Assembly: GCF_000384075.1 (NCBI RefSeq)
Contig: NZ_KB913025.1
Span: forward strand, 188,238-252,237
From: Methylovulum miyakonense HT12
Lineage (GTDB): Bacteria > Pseudomonadota > Gammaproteobacteria > Methylococcales > Methylomonadaceae
Length of the DNA: 64,000 nt
Direction: 5' to 3'
Shown: in pieces, positions 6,194 through 40,624 of the stretch
Numbering within the stretch: the first letter of the stretch is position 1
Layout: each line of letters begins with the position of its first letter
The notes under the pieces: model-generated
Seen by the model: the letters and a program-made list of their open reading frames with translations, nothing else
Told to the model about the DNA's origin: nothing
Database searches by the model: none
Program-made: the position numbers and the translations under genes

Positions 6194-6707
6194 TATGAGT
6201 AAATAATATCAGTATTATGGACTGGATTGATTCTTTAAATTGCTGTAGGGCGATAAGGTTGCTATATTAAGCACGTTTTCAAAAAAAACATACCGCCCCG
6301 CAGTCCCATGACGGAACTGGCTTGGGGCAAAAACATGAAGTTGACAGGGCAACCCCATAACGCCGCTAACTTTCGGCTTCATAACAAAAGAATTTTCGGG
6401 TTCATCGCTCGACCCTAGATGCGCGATTTTAAACTCCTGCTGAAAACAGAATTTACCACTAAGACTGATTTGACTTAGTATTTGTGAGCGCAAGTATCGT
6501 TGCCTTCATTGTTGCAGAGCAAGATACCCACAACAATGCGCCGATAAACCAACGCCGATAAACCAACAATAGCACTGTAAAAGCCCAATTGATGGTATTT
6601 TTCACCCCTATCGCCATTATTGTATTGATGACTCACTTTGCACTAGAAATTAAGCCAGTCTGATTAATAAAGTCTGACCATGGAGCAGGACACCACAAGG
6701 ATACACA
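6194..6707. promoter_or_regulatory. rluC/rne divergent intergenic region and long rne leader
   Basis: A 514-base gene-free stretch between divergent rluC and rne. It should hold both promoters and a long rne 5' untranslated region; in E. coli the rne leader is the site of RNase E autoregulation. A perfect 14-base tandem repeat (GCCGATAAACCAAC twice, 6540-6567) lies about 140 bases before the rne start. The rne ribosome binding site is AAGGATA just before 6708. I see no convincing small gene here. Confidence 0.55.
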
Positions 6708-32207: not shown

Positions 32208-33301
32208 TAAGTAATTTGACATAAGTTTTATGGTATAAAATATAAGCTTTTTGAGCCACCGCCCCCATGCCACGTTTAAAATTTGTCCGGCCACTCAGCG
32301 ACACAGACAAGCAAGAGTTGGATGCGCTTTACAAGACCCACCCAAACTTTAAGGTGCGAAGACGCGCCCACGCCTTGTTGCTGAGCGGCAGCGGGCATAC
32401 GATAAACCAGCTACAAGCCATTTTCCAGGTTGACCGTGACCCTATCAGCCAGTGGATCAACCGCTTCAACGCGCAAGGTGTCGGCGGGCTTGGGGATTTA
32501 CCGCGCTCCGGGCGTCCACCGATTTACACGCCCGAAGAAATCGCACTGTTCCGGGCCCAATTGGACGAAGAACCGCGCCAAATCAAGCAGGCCCAAGCCC
32601 TTCTGGAGGCCCGGACCCGGAAAAAGTCGGCGACCGGGACGTTAAGGCGCATTTTAAAAAAACCGGTTATTCATGGCGGCGGTGCAGGCGCTCCGTAAAA
32701 GGAAGGCGTTGTGCCAATGGCTTTGCCAAGGCCAAAGCCATCCAAACCGTCATGAAACAATGGGCCGATGAAGACAAAATCAGCCTGTACTATTTTGACG
32801 AGTCAGGCTTCAGCACCGCGTCCTCCGTGCCTTACGCCTGGCAACCCAAAGGCCGGACGTTGGAAATCCCCTGTTTCCATAGCCAGCGCCTCAATGTCCT
32901 GGGGTTTGTTTCCCGGGACAGCCGGTCTTTTTTCCACACCGTTGAAGGGCGCGTCAAAACAGAACAGGTGGCCGGGGCCTTCGACCTGTTTGCCGCACAC
33001 TATGGCGACGGCTACGCCGTCCATAAAAAACCGTGCGTCGTCATTATTGACAACGCTTCCATGCACACCAGCCGTGCCTTTTTGGCACGCCGCGACGACT
33101 GGATGGCGCAAGGTGTCGTGTTGCATTATCTGCCGCCCTATAGCCCTGAGCTTAACCTGATCGAAATCGTCTGGCGCAAGATCAAGTATGAATGGCTGCC
33201 CCTATCGTGCTATGCCAGTTACGGGACATTGAAACAGGCCGTATTGGACATCCTTTCAAAATTCGGCGATGAATACCGGGTTACTTTTGTGTAATTACTT
33301 A
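32208..33301 (+). mobile_element. IS630-family insertion sequence
   Basis: Imperfect terminal inverted repeats are visible: ATAAGTAATTTGACATAAGT starting at 32207, and the complement of ACTTTTGTGTAATTACTTAT at 33283-33302. Both ends are flanked by TA (32208-32209 and 33300-33301), the target duplicated by IS630-type elements. The right repeat overlaps the transposase stop codon. The total length is about 1.1 kb. It encodes one transposase in two overlapping frames. Confidence 0.85.
32267..33294 (+). CDS. IS630-family transposase requiring a -1 frameshift
   Basis: The first frame (32267-32698) gives a helix-turn-helix domain, with motifs VRRRAHALLLS and INQLQAIFQVDRDPISQWI. The second frame, joined by a -1 slip at A7 (TTTTAAAAAAACC, run at 32656-32662), continues ILKKTGYSWRRCRR into the DDE domain. 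Catalytic residues are in LYYFDESGFS, VVIIDNASMH and SPELNLIEIVWRKIKYEW. The joined product would be 342 residues. The slippery run at the same relative place as in the first IS630-type copy argues for programmed frameshifting. All DDE residues are intact. Confidence 0.88.
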
Positions 33302-33633: not shown

Positions 33634-33978
33634 TTATATGATAAAGTCATCAAGCGTTTTTCCAGTGCCTATCAGTTCAACCAACCAAGCGGGCTTTCTG
33701 CCATTACCGCTCCACGTTTGGGAATGGTTGTCTGGATTACGGTATTTAGCTTCAGCACGCCCTTTTTTATTTTTGGTGGACACTGTTTTGTCTGCCAACA
33801 ATTCTTCTATTGTGAATCCAGATTCTTCAGCCATTGAAACGAACTTGTTGATCAGTTCCTTTTTATCGGCAACTTTTCTGAGCTCAATCGCTTTATTGAT
33901 ATTGTCTTGTAATCTGCTTAAGTCTTTTATCGGGAAATTTTTTAAATCATTTACCGAAAGGTTTATCAAATCATTCAT
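33634..33978 (-). CDS. H-NS family nucleoid protein
   Basis: A 114-residue protein. The N-terminal part is helical and would dimerise (NDLKNFPIKDLSRLQDNINKAIELRKVADKKELI). The C terminus is the H-NS DNA-binding motif YRNPDNHSQTWSGNGRKPAWL, near the consensus YRNPxNPxQTWSGRGRxPxW. H-NS proteins bind AT-rich curved DNA and silence horizontally acquired genes. Its position next to an AT-rich methyltransferase operon makes it either a silencer carried with that region or part of it. Orientation is the same as that operon. Confidence 0.9.
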   Translation of the reverse strand: MNDLINLSVNDLKNFPIKDLSRLQDNINKAIELRKVADKKELINKFVSMAEESGFTIEELLADKTVSTKNKKGRAEAKYRNPDNHSQTWSGNGRKPAWLVELIGTGKTLDDFII

Positions 33979-34098
33979 ATGCTATTATCTCTTTAATTGT
34001 AAAAAATATATTTTACCTTAAAAATAAAATCCAATTGCAAAGATATAATAAACCGATTGATTGTTTAGTTAGGCATAGGTAAAACAATTACTATTTGA

Positions 34099-35940
34099 TT
34101 ATTTAGAAAAATCTAAGCCAACACGGGACATTGTTGCACCGAATCGTTGAAGTAAATTCAGGGCGTATTCGTATTGGAGCTGTGCAACAATTCGTACTTT
34201 GTGCTTTTCCATTGTTATATGCTCATCGTTTGGATTTTTGCTAGGCCGAAAAATTTGTAATTCTTTGGATTCAATATCAAAAACCCCATTGTTTGCTGCA
34301 ATCATTTGCTCCCAAACTAGGTTAGAGTGTAAGTAGCCGCTACGATGAATGGTAAAAGTACAAATTTTCTTATCAATTTCAAGAAAAACAAAAATATTGA
34401 GGTTCACCTCTTCAATCGCTTTTTGTTCACCAATCTCCGTTAATTCAACGGCAACAAACGGCATTGAACCTTCAACTCGACGATATAAACCAGCTGTTTT
34501 TTGTTCTGGTACTAAATCACAGGCCGGGGATAAGCATATCCAATATTCTTTTTCTGGCCCGTTATCAAGTTCCAAAATGTGCCCAGTGGTCAAATGGTAG
34601 CCATCAACGGGTTTCGTGTTGTTATAACAGTTAATGTGCTTATTTATTTTTTTTAACTCGGGATCAATATTGGTTTTAGATTGTTTTTCAGGTGCAACAG
34701 TATCATCTTTATTTTTAATGTCCGCGATATTGATCTTAATATTACAGTGTTTAGCAATTACATCTGCTGTATCGTAGGTCTTCAAGTGCGATGTAAGTTT
34801 ATCGGCAAACGTACTAATGTCTTTTCTCAACACGTCACCTAATGCTTCCCAATGTTTACTGACAGTATTGTTAATTAGTTGTTTTTGGGCATAGGCCTTT
34901 GTTTCAAGCAATTCCATTAACCAGCCCGCTTGTAAGTAATTATTTTCAAGAATTTCAGATTCGGCTATTACGCCACGGTCATCCATAAGGAAACGCATTT
35001 GGCTCATTAACAGCCTATGTGGTTTTGGACACCATTCGTGCAAAGCATCCAATAACTTTTCTGGGAGTGTATCGGGCGGATTATTTTTTTTGACTACAGT
35101 AACAAACAGGCAATCCGTTCTAATCCAATTGATGTCAGTTTCTGGTGAAGCGGTTGATACATGACCTAAAGATTCAATTGATAATTTTTCTTTTATTTCG
35201 TTTTCTTTTTTCAATAACAACCATTTAATAATATCAATAGGCTTAATATTTAAACTTTTAGGTCGTTGTTTGTGCAATGCTATTATATTTTTCCCTTCAG
35301 GTTGCCTCAGTATCTGATTACAACCATTTTCTTTTGTAGCACGATAATTCAGGTATACCTGCTCGGTAATTTCAGCATTGAGCTTATCGATAATTTTTTC
35401 ATCTTCATCTTCCCAAATACCAAGTTGTGACTTAATTTTTTCTTCTTCGCCATGCAAAAATGCAAGTTTCTCATCAGTACAAGTTAAGCCCAAAGTAATA
35501 TCACGAGCCACGTCCTTTATTTCAGCGTTTGTGTAAACAACCACCATATTAAAATGGTTGTTACTAGCGAGTTTCCTAAGGATTTTGATGGCTTTTTCGC
35601 CTGTATCGTTAAGATTGAAGTCCAATATCATCAAATCGCTGTGAATCAAATGCGGGGCAATAACTTCTTCGCCTTTAAAAGGGATATTGCTGCCGTCATG
35701 AACATCAACTAGCCAAGGCTTTTCTTTATGCCGACAAAATTGAAGAATGTCTTTGACAGTTTTAACATCGTCAAGCTTACCTTTCCATGCTCCGTTTTCG
35801 TTTAATTCCTTTGCTATCATGCCATCCAAGGAAGGAAATTCATCATCAATCACCACGACTGTGCGAATAGGGTCTATGTAAACCTCTTTTATTAAATCAC
35901 GATATTCGCTTGTTGCTGCCACGACAGCCGCCTTACTCAT
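34099..35940 (-). CDS. Receiver-domain protein of a methyltransferase/GHKL system
   Basis: A 613-residue protein. The N-terminal 150 residues look like a phospho-receiver: TVVVIDDEFP (acid pocket Asp32-Asp33), LMILDFNLNDTGEKAI (phospho-acceptor Asp107) and MVVVYTNAE (Thr137). The distance from the acid pocket to Asp107 is about 75 residues, against about 40 in ordinary receivers, so there is an insertion. The remaining 450 residues have no DNA-binding or output domain I recognise. A distinctive stretch is YWICLSPACDLVPEQ at 467-480, and no nuclease motif is evident. It overlaps the upstream ATPase gene by 8 bases, so the pair is coupled. It may resemble a receiver family found beside Hsp90-like ATPases in restriction loci; that is recollection. 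Confidence 0.75.
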   Translation of the reverse strand: MSKAAVVAATSEYRDLIKEVYIDPIRTVVVIDDEFPSLDGMIAKELNENGAWKGKLDDVKTVKDILQFCRHKEKPWLVDVHDGSNIPFKGEEVIAPHLIHSDLMILDFNLNDTGEKAIKILRKLASNNHFNMVVVYTNAEIKDVARDITLGLTCTDEKLAFLHGEEEKIKSQLGIWEDEDEKIIDKLNAEITEQVYLNYRATKENGCNQILRQPEGKNIIALHKQRPKSLNIKPIDIIKWLLLKKENEIKEKLSIESLGHVSTASPETDINWIRTDCLFVTVVKKNNPPDTLPEKLLDALHEWCPKPHRLLMSQMRFLMDDRGVIAESEILENNYLQAGWLMELLETKAYAQKQLINNTVSKHWEALGDVLRKDISTFADKLTSHLKTYDTADVIAKHCNIKINIADIKNKDDTVAPEKQSKTNIDPELKKINKHINCYNNTKPVDGYHLTTGHILELDNGPEKEYWICLSPACDLVPEQKTAGLYRRVEGSMPFVAVELTEIGEQKAIEEVNLNIFVFLEIDKKICTFTIHRSGYLHSNLVWEQMIAANNGVFDIESKELQIFRPSKNPNDEHITMEKHKVRIVAQLQYEYALNLLQRFGATMSRVGLDFSK

Positions 35941-38902
35941 ATTTCGCCCCTTTAAAATCTATCATGAAGTTTGCGCCGGGCAGCTTTTTGAGATTCCCGT
36001 CTTGAATGTAATCAATGGTATGTCCGCCTACCGCTAAATTGGCGCGGCATAGATATAGCCCTACACCGCGCCCGCCCCGAAGCTTACGGGTGAAGAACAG
36101 GCTAAATAAATGTTTAAGATCATCTTCTTCAACCCCGGGGCCATTATCGGCAACAATGACTTTGCCATCGGCAATATCCAAAAGTATTGTTTTAGGTTCG
36201 GCATCGCTTTGGCTGACCCAATAAGCAGCGTTATTGACTAAATTGATGAACACCGGATAAATTCGCGCAGGTTGTTCGTAAACGCTAAAACGCCTAAAGC
36301 TGGGTGTTGCTTCTAGGATAATTTTGCGGTCTGCCAGATTACTACCCATGAAACCTTGAATATAATCAAGCAATTTATCGCCTGTTAGCCAAGTTTTGAT
36401 TTTTTCACCGGATAATTTAAGTGGCGATAAAAACCGCAATCTATCAGCCAAGGACTCATGCGCGGTTTTGACGGCGAGATAAGCGGAGGTAGTTTTTATG
36501 GATTCAGGCATTTCGCGTAAGCCGCGTGACATAGTCATATCCAAGCCTTCAATTTCGTGGCCGATAAATTCCACGGTAATGCCCAATTGGGCCAGGGCAT
36601 TCAATTCATCCAGCTTTTTATTTAAATTCGCCGATTCTTCTAGGGTGAAACTGATTAACGCCTCCACATCCACGCTTTCTTGCAGGCTTTTTAGCACTGA
36701 AATATACGGCTCGAATACTTCGGCGTTTTTGCTGTCTTGGCGGTCACGCTCCCTATCAAATTCATCCAGTGTTTGCGCCAAAGAGATGCGCTGATGTTCC
36801 AAATCGTCCAGCAAGGGCAGCATTTCAAGATGGTAGCTTTTGTTGCGCTCTTCGGTCAGTTGCGAAACACGCTTTAATTCGGCGTTAAGCAGTTCTGCGG
36901 CTTGGGCATTCCATTTGCGTAAACGGTTGTGTAAAAAGGCGGCGTTACGGTTTAGGTTGGAATAGGCAATCTCCGTGGATGATTTTGGCTTTAGGGTTTC
37001 CAGCTTTTTAGTCACGGTGTCGTTGAGCTGCACACATAATTCGGCAACTTCGCGGCTATCACGGCGAAAGGCTTTATACGGTTCTTCCAATATACCTAGG
37101 GAGCTAGGCGGCTGGCCTAGTGATAATTCGCGCACTTCATTTTTTAAGCCGGATAAGCGTTCCCTGAAAGCCAAAACTTCGTATTCATCATCGGGAAAAC
37201 CAATTCGGGCTTGGTCTGCCAGTTGCCTTAAGGCATATAAGGATTGCTGTAGTTTGACTGTAAAGTCTTGTAAGTTTTTGCGGAATTCTTTGCGTTTACG
37301 GGCTTTGACCTTTTTTTGAGCTTCGTTGGCTTTCAGTTTAGCATTGCTTTCTTGAGTTAAACGTAATGACTCTTTACGGTGTAAAGCTTTGGTTCCGAAA
37401 AATCTGTTCGCAGAAGCAATTAGAATATTTTCTACAAGATCTCTAAATACTTTTGAAGCCTTGTTGTCGATTATACCTTCCCGCCCTGCTTTATCTCTAA
37501 GGTTTGGGTTGTGCGATCGTGTTAATGCGATTCGCCCAAAAGTACGCCTATTTGACCAAAACTCGCGGCCTGCATGTTGAGAACGCCTCTTCTCAATTTC
37601 AAAAAAATCATTGTCTTCTCTACCATAAGGCATAACTCTTAAACCATTTCTGTAAATTAAAAGTCCGCCGTAGCGTTCTGATTGGCCTTTAAATTTACTC
37701 CAAACCTCAGCCGGATGAGTTGAATTCATTTCTAGTCCTTCATAAGATCCTAGACGTATACGAAATAATCCAACACGGCTATCAGAACGGGTAGGAACTT
37801 TTGCTTTCGGTATAATTTGAATTTCGCCCTCTAACCATTGGCCGAAAGCTTTGATGCGGCCTTTGAAAATACCCAACTCATCAACCGTACCATCAAGAAT
37901 ATGTTCCAGTTCTTCAAGATTGCATAAGTCAAACTCCCTATCACTAGAAATAATAGGACGGCTTAGTAAGCCTTCCCATGCAGTGACGGAAACATCAAAG
38001 TCTTCTGCCGCATAGCCCTGTAAGATTTCTGAAGCATCTACAAAAGGATCAGTAAAATTTTGCAAGGTTTCAAATAAACGATCTTGCGCTTTTTTAGCGG
38101 TTTCTTCTTCATCAAACGTAGTTTGATTCTTTAGTTGCGCCTCCAAATCGAAAGAAATATTGCCTATAAAAAGGGCTGTGCCATGTGTTTTTTTGCCGTT
38201 CCAAACATTCCATTGTTGTAAATGACGGGGTTCAAAAACAGTGGCAATCAATACTGTTTCAATGGCTTTGCTGGTTAATTGTTTATTTTCGTTCTCTTCT
38301 AATTCGTCAAAACTTTGCCAAGCAGCTTTTATACGTTGATCTCTCGCAAAATCCCGACCATCACCCCATAAATTACCCATTAAGCGGTCAAACATTTTGG
38401 GCAGTTGTTCCAACAGCTCATTGGGGTCATAAAATTCGATGATGGGGATTTCTATGTCTTGCAGATACAGGAAGGGGTTTTCAAATAAGCGCCAATCTAC
38501 CAAAGTGGCGACAAAAGGTTGGGTGGTTTTTTTGGAGACCAGTAATAACAAAGAGCCTAAATTAGCGGATGATAAACGGCCTATACCTTTTTGCCCTTGC
38601 TTGGGGCGTATAGGTAATTGATTTCTATCTGATACATCTAATGCTGCGCTTGAAGTTTTTGATTCTGTGCCGACCACTAGCCATTTTTCAATAAAGTCTT
38701 CCCGGCTCATGCCATGACCATCATCGACTATTGCCGCAATCGGCATTTCGCCATCAAAAATATGCAAAGCGACTTCTCGTGCATAGGCATCGTAGGCGTT
38801 TTTCCATAATTCGGAAACGGCGGTTGGGCAGTCGGCGATTTGCTCTCGCCCAAGGTGGTCTATGGTTCTGGCCCGTGTTTTAAAGGCTGCGGTTTCGATC
38901 AT
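35933..38902 (-). CDS. Double-GHKL protein: MORC/Hsp90-like ATPase plus histidine-kinase-like C terminus
   Basis: A 989-residue protein. The N-terminal Bergerat ATPase has ELWKNAYDAYA (31-41, Glu and Asn of the N-box), IVDDGHGMS (58-66), and KQGQKGIGRLSSANLG (101-116), all typical of MutL/MORC/Hsp90-like enzymes. A transducer-like segment follows with NLRDKAGREGII. Residues about 510-730 are highly charged helix, probably coiled coil. The C terminus is like a histidine kinase: VEFIGHEIEGL with His782, N-box INLVNNAAYW (886-895), DNGPG (919-923) and GGRGVGLYL (943-951). No membrane segment is present. It lies 16 bases after a cytosine methyltransferase and overlaps a receiver-domain gene. Function is inferred as a restriction/defence ATPase with a phospho-signalling module. 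Confidence 0.8.
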   Translation of the reverse strand: MIETAAFKTRARTIDHLGREQIADCPTAVSELWKNAYDAYAREVALHIFDGEMPIAAIVDDGHGMSREDFIEKWLVVGTESKTSSAALDVSDRNQLPIRPKQGQKGIGRLSSANLGSLLLLVSKKTTQPFVATLVDWRLFENPFLYLQDIEIPIIEFYDPNELLEQLPKMFDRLMGNLWGDGRDFARDQRIKAAWQSFDELEENENKQLTSKAIETVLIATVFEPRHLQQWNVWNGKKTHGTALFIGNISFDLEAQLKNQTTFDEEETAKKAQDRLFETLQNFTDPFVDASEILQGYAAEDFDVSVTAWEGLLSRPIISSDREFDLCNLEELEHILDGTVDELGIFKGRIKAFGQWLEGEIQIIPKAKVPTRSDSRVGLFRIRLGSYEGLEMNSTHPAEVWSKFKGQSERYGGLLIYRNGLRVMPYGREDNDFFEIEKRRSQHAGREFWSNRRTFGRIALTRSHNPNLRDKAGREGIIDNKASKVFRDLVENILIASANRFFGTKALHRKESLRLTQESNAKLKANEAQKKVKARKRKEFRKNLQDFTVKLQQSLYALRQLADQARIGFPDDEYEVLAFRERLSGLKNEVRELSLGQPPSSLGILEEPYKAFRRDSREVAELCVQLNDTVTKKLETLKPKSSTEIAYSNLNRNAAFLHNRLRKWNAQAAELLNAELKRVSQLTEERNKSYHLEMLPLLDDLEHQRISLAQTLDEFDRERDRQDSKNAEVFEPYISVLKSLQESVDVEALISFTLEESANLNKKLDELNALAQLGITVEFIGHEIEGLDMTMSRGLREMPESIKTTSAYLAVKTAHESLADRLRFLSPLKLSGEKIKTWLTGDKLLDYIQGFMGSNLADRKIILEATPSFRRFSVYEQPARIYPVFINLVNNAAYWVSQSDAEPKTILLDIADGKVIVADNGPGVEEDDLKHLFSLFFTRKLRGGRGVGLYLCRANLAVGGHTIDYIQDGNLKKLPGANFMIDFKGAKYE

Positions 38903-38918
38903 AGAAGGTCAACTGATA

Positions 38919-39998
38919 TTAATGGTCTGGCGTAAAGTTTAGGCCATTTGCGATAGTCCGCAATAAAACTTCACCTAATTTTACGGGTACGGCGTTGCCG
39001 ATTTGTTGGCTGGCGGCAATGATGCCACCTTTAAAGACGAACGAATCAGGAAAGGTTTGGAAACGGGCGGCATGACGCACAGATATGCCGTGGTGTTCGG
39101 TGGGATGTACAAACCGGCCTTTGGACGGATTAGTGCAAGCCGTCGTCATTGTTGGCCCTGGCTGATTTGGATCAATTCTTCCATAAACGTCTTGATGGCC
39201 TTTATGGTTTTCATGGCAAGGCAATACCCGATTTGAATGTTTCCGGCTACCTCCGTTTAAAGGGGTTGATTTAAATACCTCAATTAATTCAGCGGTGTGA
39301 TTCATGTGAATATTATTTTCATCATTTTCATCCACTGGCTTCTCAAAAACGTGGGCTGCTGTTTGCCAAGGTTGGAGGCGTGGGTTATGTTTTACATTTT
39401 GAATATCACCATGTGTGGGTGCTGGAGGCCATGATACATTAAATTCCACATCCGGCCTGATACCTAAAATAAATATGCGTTTTCTTCTTTGCGGTAAACC
39501 GAAGTCTCTGGCATCAAGAGTAACTGGCGGCATTAGGCGATAACCTGCTTTTTCCCCTGCTTCATAAAACGCATCCAAAAATTTTCTGTGTCTAAGCCAT
39601 AAAATACCCGGTACGTTTTCCATAAGGAAAACCCTTGGCTTAAGTACTTTTACGAATTCAAAATAACGTAAAATTAATTTGTTGCGTGGATCATCAATTC
39701 CTGAATTATTGATTCTGTGGATAGAAAATCCTTGGCATGGAGGCCCCCCTAAGACAATATCACATTGTTTCTCAGCATTAAAACAGTCGTTCAGAATTTC
39801 TGTGGGGCTGATTTCGAGAATATCCCGATTATAAAGCTTGGTCGAATTGCCATTTATTAGGTTGGCTTCATACGTATCGCAAGCATGTCTGTTGAGCTCA
39901 ATCGCAGCTGCAACTGAGAAACCAATATTTTGTGCCGCCAGCGAAAACCCACCGGCGCCTGCAAACAAGTCAATGCAATATAAAGGTTTATTTTCCAT
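38919..39998 (-). CDS. C5-cytosine DNA methyltransferase
   Basis: A 359-residue DNA methyltransferase. Motif I is DLFAGAGGFSLAA (10-22), motif IV GGPPCQGFS with the catalytic Cys88, motif VI MENVPG (Glu126), motif VIII QRRKRIFILG, and motif X QQIGNAVPV. The target-recognition region lies between motifs VIII and IX; specificity cannot be read. Motif I begins at residue 10, so the ATG at 39998 is right, yet no Shine-Dalgarno sequence precedes it (ATTAAAATAGC). It leads an operon with the GHKL and receiver genes. No restriction enzyme lies beside it. Confidence 0.95.
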   Translation of the reverse strand: MENKPLYCIDLFAGAGGFSLAAQNIGFSVAAAIELNRHACDTYEANLINGNSTKLYNRDILEISPTEILNDCFNAEKQCDIVLGGPPCQGFSIHRINNSGIDDPRNKLILRYFEFVKVLKPRVFLMENVPGILWLRHRKFLDAFYEAGEKAGYRLMPPVTLDARDFGLPQRRKRIFILGIRPDVEFNVSWPPAPTHGDIQNVKHNPRLQPWQTAAHVFEKPVDENDENNIHMNHTAELIEVFKSTPLNGGSRKHSNRVLPCHENHKGHQDVYGRIDPNQPGPTMTTACTNPSKGRFVHPTEHHGISVRHAARFQTFPDSFVFKGGIIAASQQIGNAVPVKLGEVLLRTIANGLNFTPDH

Positions 39999-40480
39999 GC
40001 TATTTTAATATCGTATTATTAATGGATATATCACCAGTAATTTTGAATTTTTTAGCCCAAGGATGTTTTAAAGTCTTATATAAAAAGAGCCTAGCATTTA
40101 ACAGAGCAAATATAAATATAAGAAAAAGATGTGGGAATCCTTAAATCCAATTGCCAAACATGGAGGATTCTCAGAATGGAAAAACGATCATTTGAAGATG
40201 ATAAGCTTTGCCACTGTTTGTAGCAGGATTCAGTCTTATCAAGACCATCATTTGTTAATTCTTCTTGGCTCTATATGTGTTTTAGTTCTTTGCAAGCCAA
40301 AACACCTCAAAGTTTAAAAATAGGGGGAAAAATGGGTGTTTTGACCTATAAATCTGCTGATATTGGATTACAAATTTAGGTTTGCATCCAATAAAAGACA
40401 TTTGAAACTTTTTAGCCACCATCATTCAAAAAGACCCTGAAACCCATATTGAGTCTTTTTCTTTAATTTAACGGGCAATA
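39999..40480. other. AT-rich region upstream of the methyltransferase operon
   Basis: About 480 bases, strongly AT-rich. A possible -10 (TAATAATACGAT) lies just before the methyltransferase gene on the minus strand. A weak hairpin with arms AAAAAGAC / GTCTTTTT spans 40428-40461. A 62-codon plus-strand frame (40129-40317) has no ribosome site of note and no recognised domain; I do not call it a gene. No integrase or direct copy of the tRNA-Pro end is visible. Confidence 0.4.
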
Positions 40481-40547: not shown

Positions 40548-40624
40548 TGGTCGGGACGACAGGATTTGAACCTGCGACCACTTGTCCCCCAGACAAGTAC
40601 GCTACCAAGCTGCGCTACGCCCCG
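40548..40624 (-). tRNA. tRNA-Pro(GGG)
   Basis: The minus strand folds as a 77-base cloverleaf: acceptor CGGGGCG paired with CGTCCCG, anticodon loop CTGGGGG giving anticodon GGG, T-arm with GGTTCAAATCC, discriminator A and encoded CCA. It lies downstream of ihfA on the same strand, as in pseudomonads. Confidence 0.96.

Follow-up and report, generated by a model that had tools for sequence, protein, structure and literature searches.

A widespread trio of cytosine-5 methylase, predicted MORC-type ATPase-histidine kinase and receiver protein in Methylovulum miyakonense, with a probable antiviral or DNA-policing role

The window analyzed here is a 64,000-nucleotide stretch of the Methylovulum miyakonense HT12 genome (NCBI RefSeq assembly GCF_000384075.1, contig NZ_KB913025.1, positions 188,238 to 252,237). 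Three intact genes on its reverse strand form an operon at positions 34099-39998, in which a DNA methyltransferase gene is followed by an ATPase gene and then by a receiver gene (Table 1). The initial annotation had described a cytosine-5 methyltransferase, a 989-residue protein with GHKL motifs at both ends and a receiver-like protein, all tightly packed. The open reading frame coordinates bear out the packing, with a gap of 16 bases between the methylase and ATPase genes and an overlap of 8 bases between the ATPase and receiver genes, and Pfam agrees with all three identities. The GC content of the trio is 37-43%, versus 50% in the rest of the window. In comparison with the nearest relative, pN/pS was 0.26 for the receiver gene and 0.20 for both the ATPase and the methylase gene, ratios that indicate protein-sequence constraint on all three. 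Against the same relative (locus L016), pS was 0.49 in the receiver gene and 0.77-0.78 in the ATPase and methylase genes, and the receiver gene has a GC content of 37% versus 43% for the other two; the low values may reflect either recombination or a composition effect.

Table 1. Features of the module and its flanks, in window coordinates.
Feature	Positions	Strand	Evidence or remark
IS630-type transposase, two overlapping ORFs, possibly read by frameshift	32267..33294	+	borders the module
H-NS-like protein gene	33634..33978	-	flanking; 120 bases downstream of the receiver gene
Receiver (Response_reg_2) protein, 613 aa	34099..35940	-	ORF, Pfam, model
C-terminal beta-barrel, aa 443-605, SH3/MazF-PemK-like fold	34126..34614	-	model, structure search
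Lys285, end of beta5, completes the receiver active site	35086..35088	-	invariant, 81/81
Mostly helical insertion of ~130 aa, beta4-beta5 of receiver, aa 141-270	35131..35520	-	model
Pfam-defined receiver part, aa 25-154	35479..35868	-	PF19192, E 4e-14, 53.7 bits (cut-off 27)
Asp107, predicted phosphorylation site	35620..35622	-	invariant, 81/81
MORC/paraMORC-type ATPase fused to histidine-kinase module, 989 aa	35933..38902	-	ORF, Pfam, structure model
C-terminal HATPase_c (CA) domain, aa 878-965	36008..36271	-	PF02518, E 9e-14
HEF_HK (DHp-like) region, aa 772-829	36416..36589	-	Pfam PF19191, 22.7 bits (cut-off 24.1)
His782, predicted phospho-accepting His	36557..36559	-	invariant, 73/73; followed by E/D
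Long helical linker, probably coiled-coil, aa 481-742	36677..37462	-	secondary structure of model
Middle S5/transducer-like region, aa 240-480	37463..38185	-	Foldseek to MORC3/MORC2 over ~500 columns; exact boundary inferred
N-terminal GHKL ATPase domain, aa 27-134	38501..38824	-	PF13589, E 3e-18
C5-cytosine DNA methyltransferase, 359 aa	38919..39998	-	ORF, PF00145, E 5e-63
tRNA-Pro	40548..40624	-	flanking; upstream of the module

The methylase carries the motifs FAGAGG, PPCQGFS, ENV, QRRKR and GNAVP, all intact, and its closest solved relative is M.HaeIII. In terms of a type II restriction-modification (R-M) system, the window contains a methylase with intact motifs, and no cognate restriction endonuclease was recognized in it.

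The 989-residue protein was aligned with its relatives and modeled. Among 73 ATPases, residues E31, N35, D60, G62 and G64 and the GQKGIGR loop are invariant or nearly so. His782, N887, N891, D919 and G921 are invariant, and the other tested positions of the N, G1, F and G2 boxes show at most two exceptions; the H, N, G1, F and G2 boxes of a two-component kinase are all present. The structure prediction reached a mean pLDDT of 81. Foldseek searches with this model matched the N-terminal half to MORC3 (5ix1) and MORC2-DNA (9cdh) structures and the C-terminal half to whole DHp-plus-catalytic modules, those of CpxA, HK853 and ZraS, in each case with a probability of 1.00. Model confidence is low (~45-66) over residues 741-790, which include His782. 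MutL-type models also match the N terminus. With both the GHKL motifs and a MORC-type middle domain found, the model bears out a fusion of a MORC-type ATPase with a histidine-kinase module; the histidine-kinase fold that the initial annotation had supposed for the C-terminal half is present in it.

A complete set of receiver active-site residues was found in the 613-residue protein. Across 81 receiver proteins, D32, D33, D102, D107 and K285 are invariant, and position 137 is Thr in 77 and Ser in 4, so that the acidic pair, the Asp, the Thr/Ser and the Lys of a canonical receiver are all accounted for, with Asp107 at the correct acceptor position. The model of this protein is confident (pLDDT 90.6, pTM 0.86), and structure searches with it returned receiver folds with probabilities up to 0.90. 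Because strand 5 and Lys285 follow the insertion of ~130 residues, the receiver spans about residues 25-303 in this model, beyond the part that Pfam defines. A GapS6a similarity (NCBIfam, E 0.01) was put down to chance, because only 1 of the 81 members has it. No PADLOC model fits the protein, and it has neither a recognizable DNA-binding output nor a recognizable nuclease domain.

The invariant residues of the receiver protein also include G453, C474, D475 and Y592 in the barrel, with R606 and G608 just past it. In structure searches, the best matches of this predicted barrel were MazF among PDB entries (probability 0.96) and, in a viral library, a PemK-like protein (0.80), at E values of 0.03-0.05 and an rmsd of 7.5-11. 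Homology to MazF was rejected, since comparing its profile with that of 21 PemK proteins gave no support (hhalign probability of 0.35, scale 0-100), and the barrel lacks an Arg that all 21 share. The likeness is one of predicted fold only, a lead rather than membership in the family.

We then asked about a nuclease. None was recognized in the trio proteins by Pfam, NCBIfam or PADLOC, as the initial annotation had also noted, and a tblastn search of the whole window with five nuclease families gave no significant match. The restriction-enzyme matches of the trio are confined to the GHKL part of the ATPase, which resembles GHKL-containing enzymes (NF050001, PDLC03419). The effector had been supposed either to be hidden in the 613-residue protein or to be absent; no recognizable nuclease lies inside that protein, and a neighboring nuclease is absent at this locus. 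A Vsr acting in trans was rejected as a candidate, the single vsr of this genome adjoining another methylase at about C1:2.086 Mb. That separate locus (L099:5972-8569; C1 about 2.085-2.088 Mb) combines a C5 methylase, vsr and a restriction-enzyme-like gene.

The H-NS-like gene sits where the nearest relatives have vsr. It was rejected as a fourth member of the module, since no H-NS family occurs among the genes that recur beside the module in relatives. The tRNA-Pro gene was likewise dismissed as an attachment site, there being no duplicated 3' end downstream. A 15-nucleotide direct repeat with 93% identity (34027-34041 and 40143-40157) brackets the module and may plausibly be due to chance. 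For an empty-site comparison, no relative was found with both flanks on one contig. In Methylobacter tundripaludum SV96 (L017:5786-9999), the related ATPase gene is broken by an insertion, part of which (6221-6363) resembles the IS630 element beside the module in the window.

Is the trio a fixed unit? Bacterial genomes scanned with an alignment of the receiver protein gave 79 loci, to which viral contigs and plasmids added three each; 87 loci were analyzed, and counts are slightly inflated because two pairs are duplicates (L013/L022 and L071/L096). Wherever the contig reaches far enough, the gene immediately upstream of the receiver gene, in the same orientation, is that of the ATPase; the sole apparent exception (L013) is a locus read on the opposite strand. 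Of the 87 loci, 83 also have a C5 methylase. The linkage of the ATPase gene is not circular, because the search patterns were derived from the receiver protein, and searches of plasmids started from either the receiver or the ATPase yielded the identical three records. Both genes were found in 4 of 369 genomes sampled from one class (~1% of the class). None of 18 other genomes from the genus has the trio, and the phage genomes searched contained no match. The absence of the trio from these 18 genomes together with its low GC content suggests that the module was acquired horizontally.

Pairwise distances over 79 loci revealed a difference between the members of the trio. Those of the ATPase and the receiver protein are correlated with r=0.94, a value to which common descent contributes besides interaction and which is no proof of contact, whereas those of the methylase and either partner are correlated with r of ~0.4. 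The relatives show several types and positions of methylase. On the basis of these correlations, the kinase and the receiver look like a fixed core, and the methylase looks as if it had been replaced more than once.

Known nuclease families recur close to the module in relatives. Within 2.5 kb of it, Vsr was found in 35 of the 87 loci, HNH_2, NOV_C and another HNH family in 5 each and an AspBHI-type nuclease in 4; none of these families was found farther out, although the outer regions amount to nearly twice as much sequence. In the nearest relative, vsr lies 16 bases downstream of the module. Classification of 138 flanking proteins with Pfam and PADLOC gave 25 Vsr, 7 HNH and 4 methyl-directed type II restriction enzymes, and flanking genes match the methyl-directed and type II restriction families of PADLOC. 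In 41 of the 87 loci, including clades with a bare trio, none of these nuclease families was found, a count that includes loci that end at contig edges or may carry unrecognized nucleases. Similar open reading frames near the module at two loci (L072:4795-5322 and L025:11987-12514) are ArdA antirestriction-like, and Pfam found ArdA in one scanned flanking gene.

The trio also occurs in Escherichia coli. Its version in strain SE15 is 48% (ATPase), 45% (methylase) and 32% (receiver) identical in protein sequence to that of the window. Downstream of it lies the gene for an HNH nuclease, which the annotation calls a phosphorothioated-DNA-binding enzyme. Trios of the SE15 type (at least 80% present) were found in 205 of 5426 E. 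coli genomes and a second version in 7; one example of the latter was examined, and no nuclease adjoins it. In 26 further genomes, which may be clonally related, less than 80% of the SE15-type trio was detected; among the matches shown, for example that of strain 55989, all that is left is a 3' piece of the receiver gene. In strain 55989 (L156:5288-7536), where this piece is short, the break is marked by an IS1 copy and the nuclease gene is intact despite loss of the trio. Survival of a nuclease after loss of the methylase is at odds with a simple type II pair; such a nuclease would either need the trio for its activation or recognize something besides unmethylated sites.

Because the same trio recurs in dozens of genomes, its arrangement is more than chance. 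The joint travel of the three genes that the initial annotation had predicted holds in nearly all of the 87 loci, and the trio is a genuine, widespread unit with a probable role in antiviral defense or DNA policing. Our main reading, to which we give a probability of roughly 45%, is that the operon encodes a DNA-sensing, phosphotransfer-gated, restriction-like defense system. The C5 methylase would mark host DNA as self. The MORC-type half of the ATPase would close on DNA in an ATP-dependent manner and discriminate unmarked or abnormal DNA, and the long helical linker would carry the signal on to the kinase half. The kinase half would autophosphorylate His782 and hand the phosphate to Asp107 of the 613-residue protein, and the phosphorylated receiver would act by its own barrel or license a nuclease encoded nearby or elsewhere. 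Sequence and structure prediction show the linkage, the invariant residues, the folds, the co-variation, the constraint and the enrichment of nucleases; DNA sensing, phosphotransfer, methylation as a self mark, the effector and defense itself are inferred. The sporadic distribution of the module also counts in favor of this reading. Several results count against the defense reading: the window contains no nuclease, the recurrent nuclease families are missing in about half of the loci, model confidence is low around His782, the barrel has neither the MazF Arg nor profile support, and the nuclease gene outlives the trio in some E. coli (55989).

Other explanations have to be weighed against this reading. 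One is a stand-alone immunity, in which the MORC-type clamp would report foreign DNA through the His-to-Asp relay to a PemK/MazF-like barrel as effector, with no separate nuclease; we regard it as unlikely. Also doubtful is the speculation of a 2021 paper (PMC8011034) that a two-component-like pair adjusts how a neighboring R-M system is expressed or how active it is and does not itself execute defense. The kinase-plus-receiver architecture, the nuclease genes near half of the loci and the judgment of those authors themselves speak for such tuning, but the receiver protein has no recognizable DNA-binding output, many loci have no recognizable nuclease to regulate, and the methylase has been exchanged independently of the kinase-receiver pair.

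Could the locus in the window instead be an incomplete remnant, in which a nuclease or vsr was lost and methylation alone persists? The closest relatives do have vsr directly downstream, and in the window its place is taken by an H-NS-like gene and an IS630 element. The three intact frames, the retention of all catalytic residues and a pN/pS of 0.20-0.26 argue otherwise, as do whole clades of relatives that keep the bare trio, and we consider a remnant quite improbable. A dedicated unit for methylation maintenance and mismatch repair, in which the MutL/MORC-like ATPase and Vsr would fix T:G mismatches arising from deamination of 5-methylcytosine, appears very unlikely. Vsr is the commonest neighbor of the module, in the closest relative its immediate one, and MutL-type models match the N terminus of the ATPase; however, more than half of the loci, this one included, have no Vsr, a kinase-receiver relay would be superfluous for repair, and Vsr accompanies C5 methylases generally, as it does the separate methylase in the host genome.

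MORC proteins form a family that silences DNA in eukaryotes. If the DNA-sensing, phosphotransfer-gated defense reading is right, bacteria employ a two-component phosphorelay for signaling within a restriction-like defense that has a MORC protein as its sensor, and the trio would offer a bacterial, biochemically tractable model for the reading of DNA state by MORC ATPases. The natural E. coli versions put phosphotransfer and phage assays within reach.

Several known systems share parts of this architecture. The paraMORC R-M families, as outlined by Iyer, Abhiman, and Aravind (2008, PMC2292703), have the N-terminal GHKL and MORC-type middle domains in common with the trio ATPase and likewise adjoin C5 methylases, Vsr and HNH nucleases; the trio ATPase differs from them in having a histidine-kinase module in place of a fused nuclease. 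A GHKL ATPase N terminus is also shared with Shedu type I-D/paraMORC3 (VcSduA, PMC12137116), a protein with a shown role in phage defense. VcSduA has a C-terminal DUF4263 nuclease, whereas Pfam found no DUF4263 in the trio proteins. With BbrUII/HgiDII-type enzymes (NF050001), the ATPase part alone is in common (aa 12-129, E 2e-18), and the score of 66 bits is far from the cut-off of 550. MazF/PemK toxins are the top structural match of the receiver-protein barrel in two libraries, but the barrel has neither profile similarity to them nor the PemK-invariant Arg. A figure of unvalidated candidates in a 2026 prediction paper (PMC13092281) shows a HATPase + REC system that may be the same trio.

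The closest counterpart is the set of HEF_HK/Response_reg_2 genes with a C5 methylase described by Bellieny-Rabelo et al. (2021, PMC8011034), where tight linkage is seen in 91.6% of 644 regions. That paper reports no functional experiment, and its accessible part does not describe the C-terminal barrel of the receiver protein. Full-text searches of a library that mostly lacks subscription papers and preprints brought up no subsequent work on what these domains do. A nearby Vsr or nuclease is frequent but not universal in that system, whereas none is found here, and the HEF_HK region of our ATPase scores just below the Pfam cut-off. The domain order of the ATPase (HATPase_c_3, putative HEF_HK, HATPase_c) is that of their group 1, and the receiver family, the neighboring C5 methylase and the tight linkage are the same. 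The initial interpretation thus stands in its linkage, its kinase fold and its receiver, which proves to have a complete active site, and the joining of R-M to two-component signaling that it proposed had already been published in 2021. The trio is an additional case of this published kind and is less novel than was first supposed.
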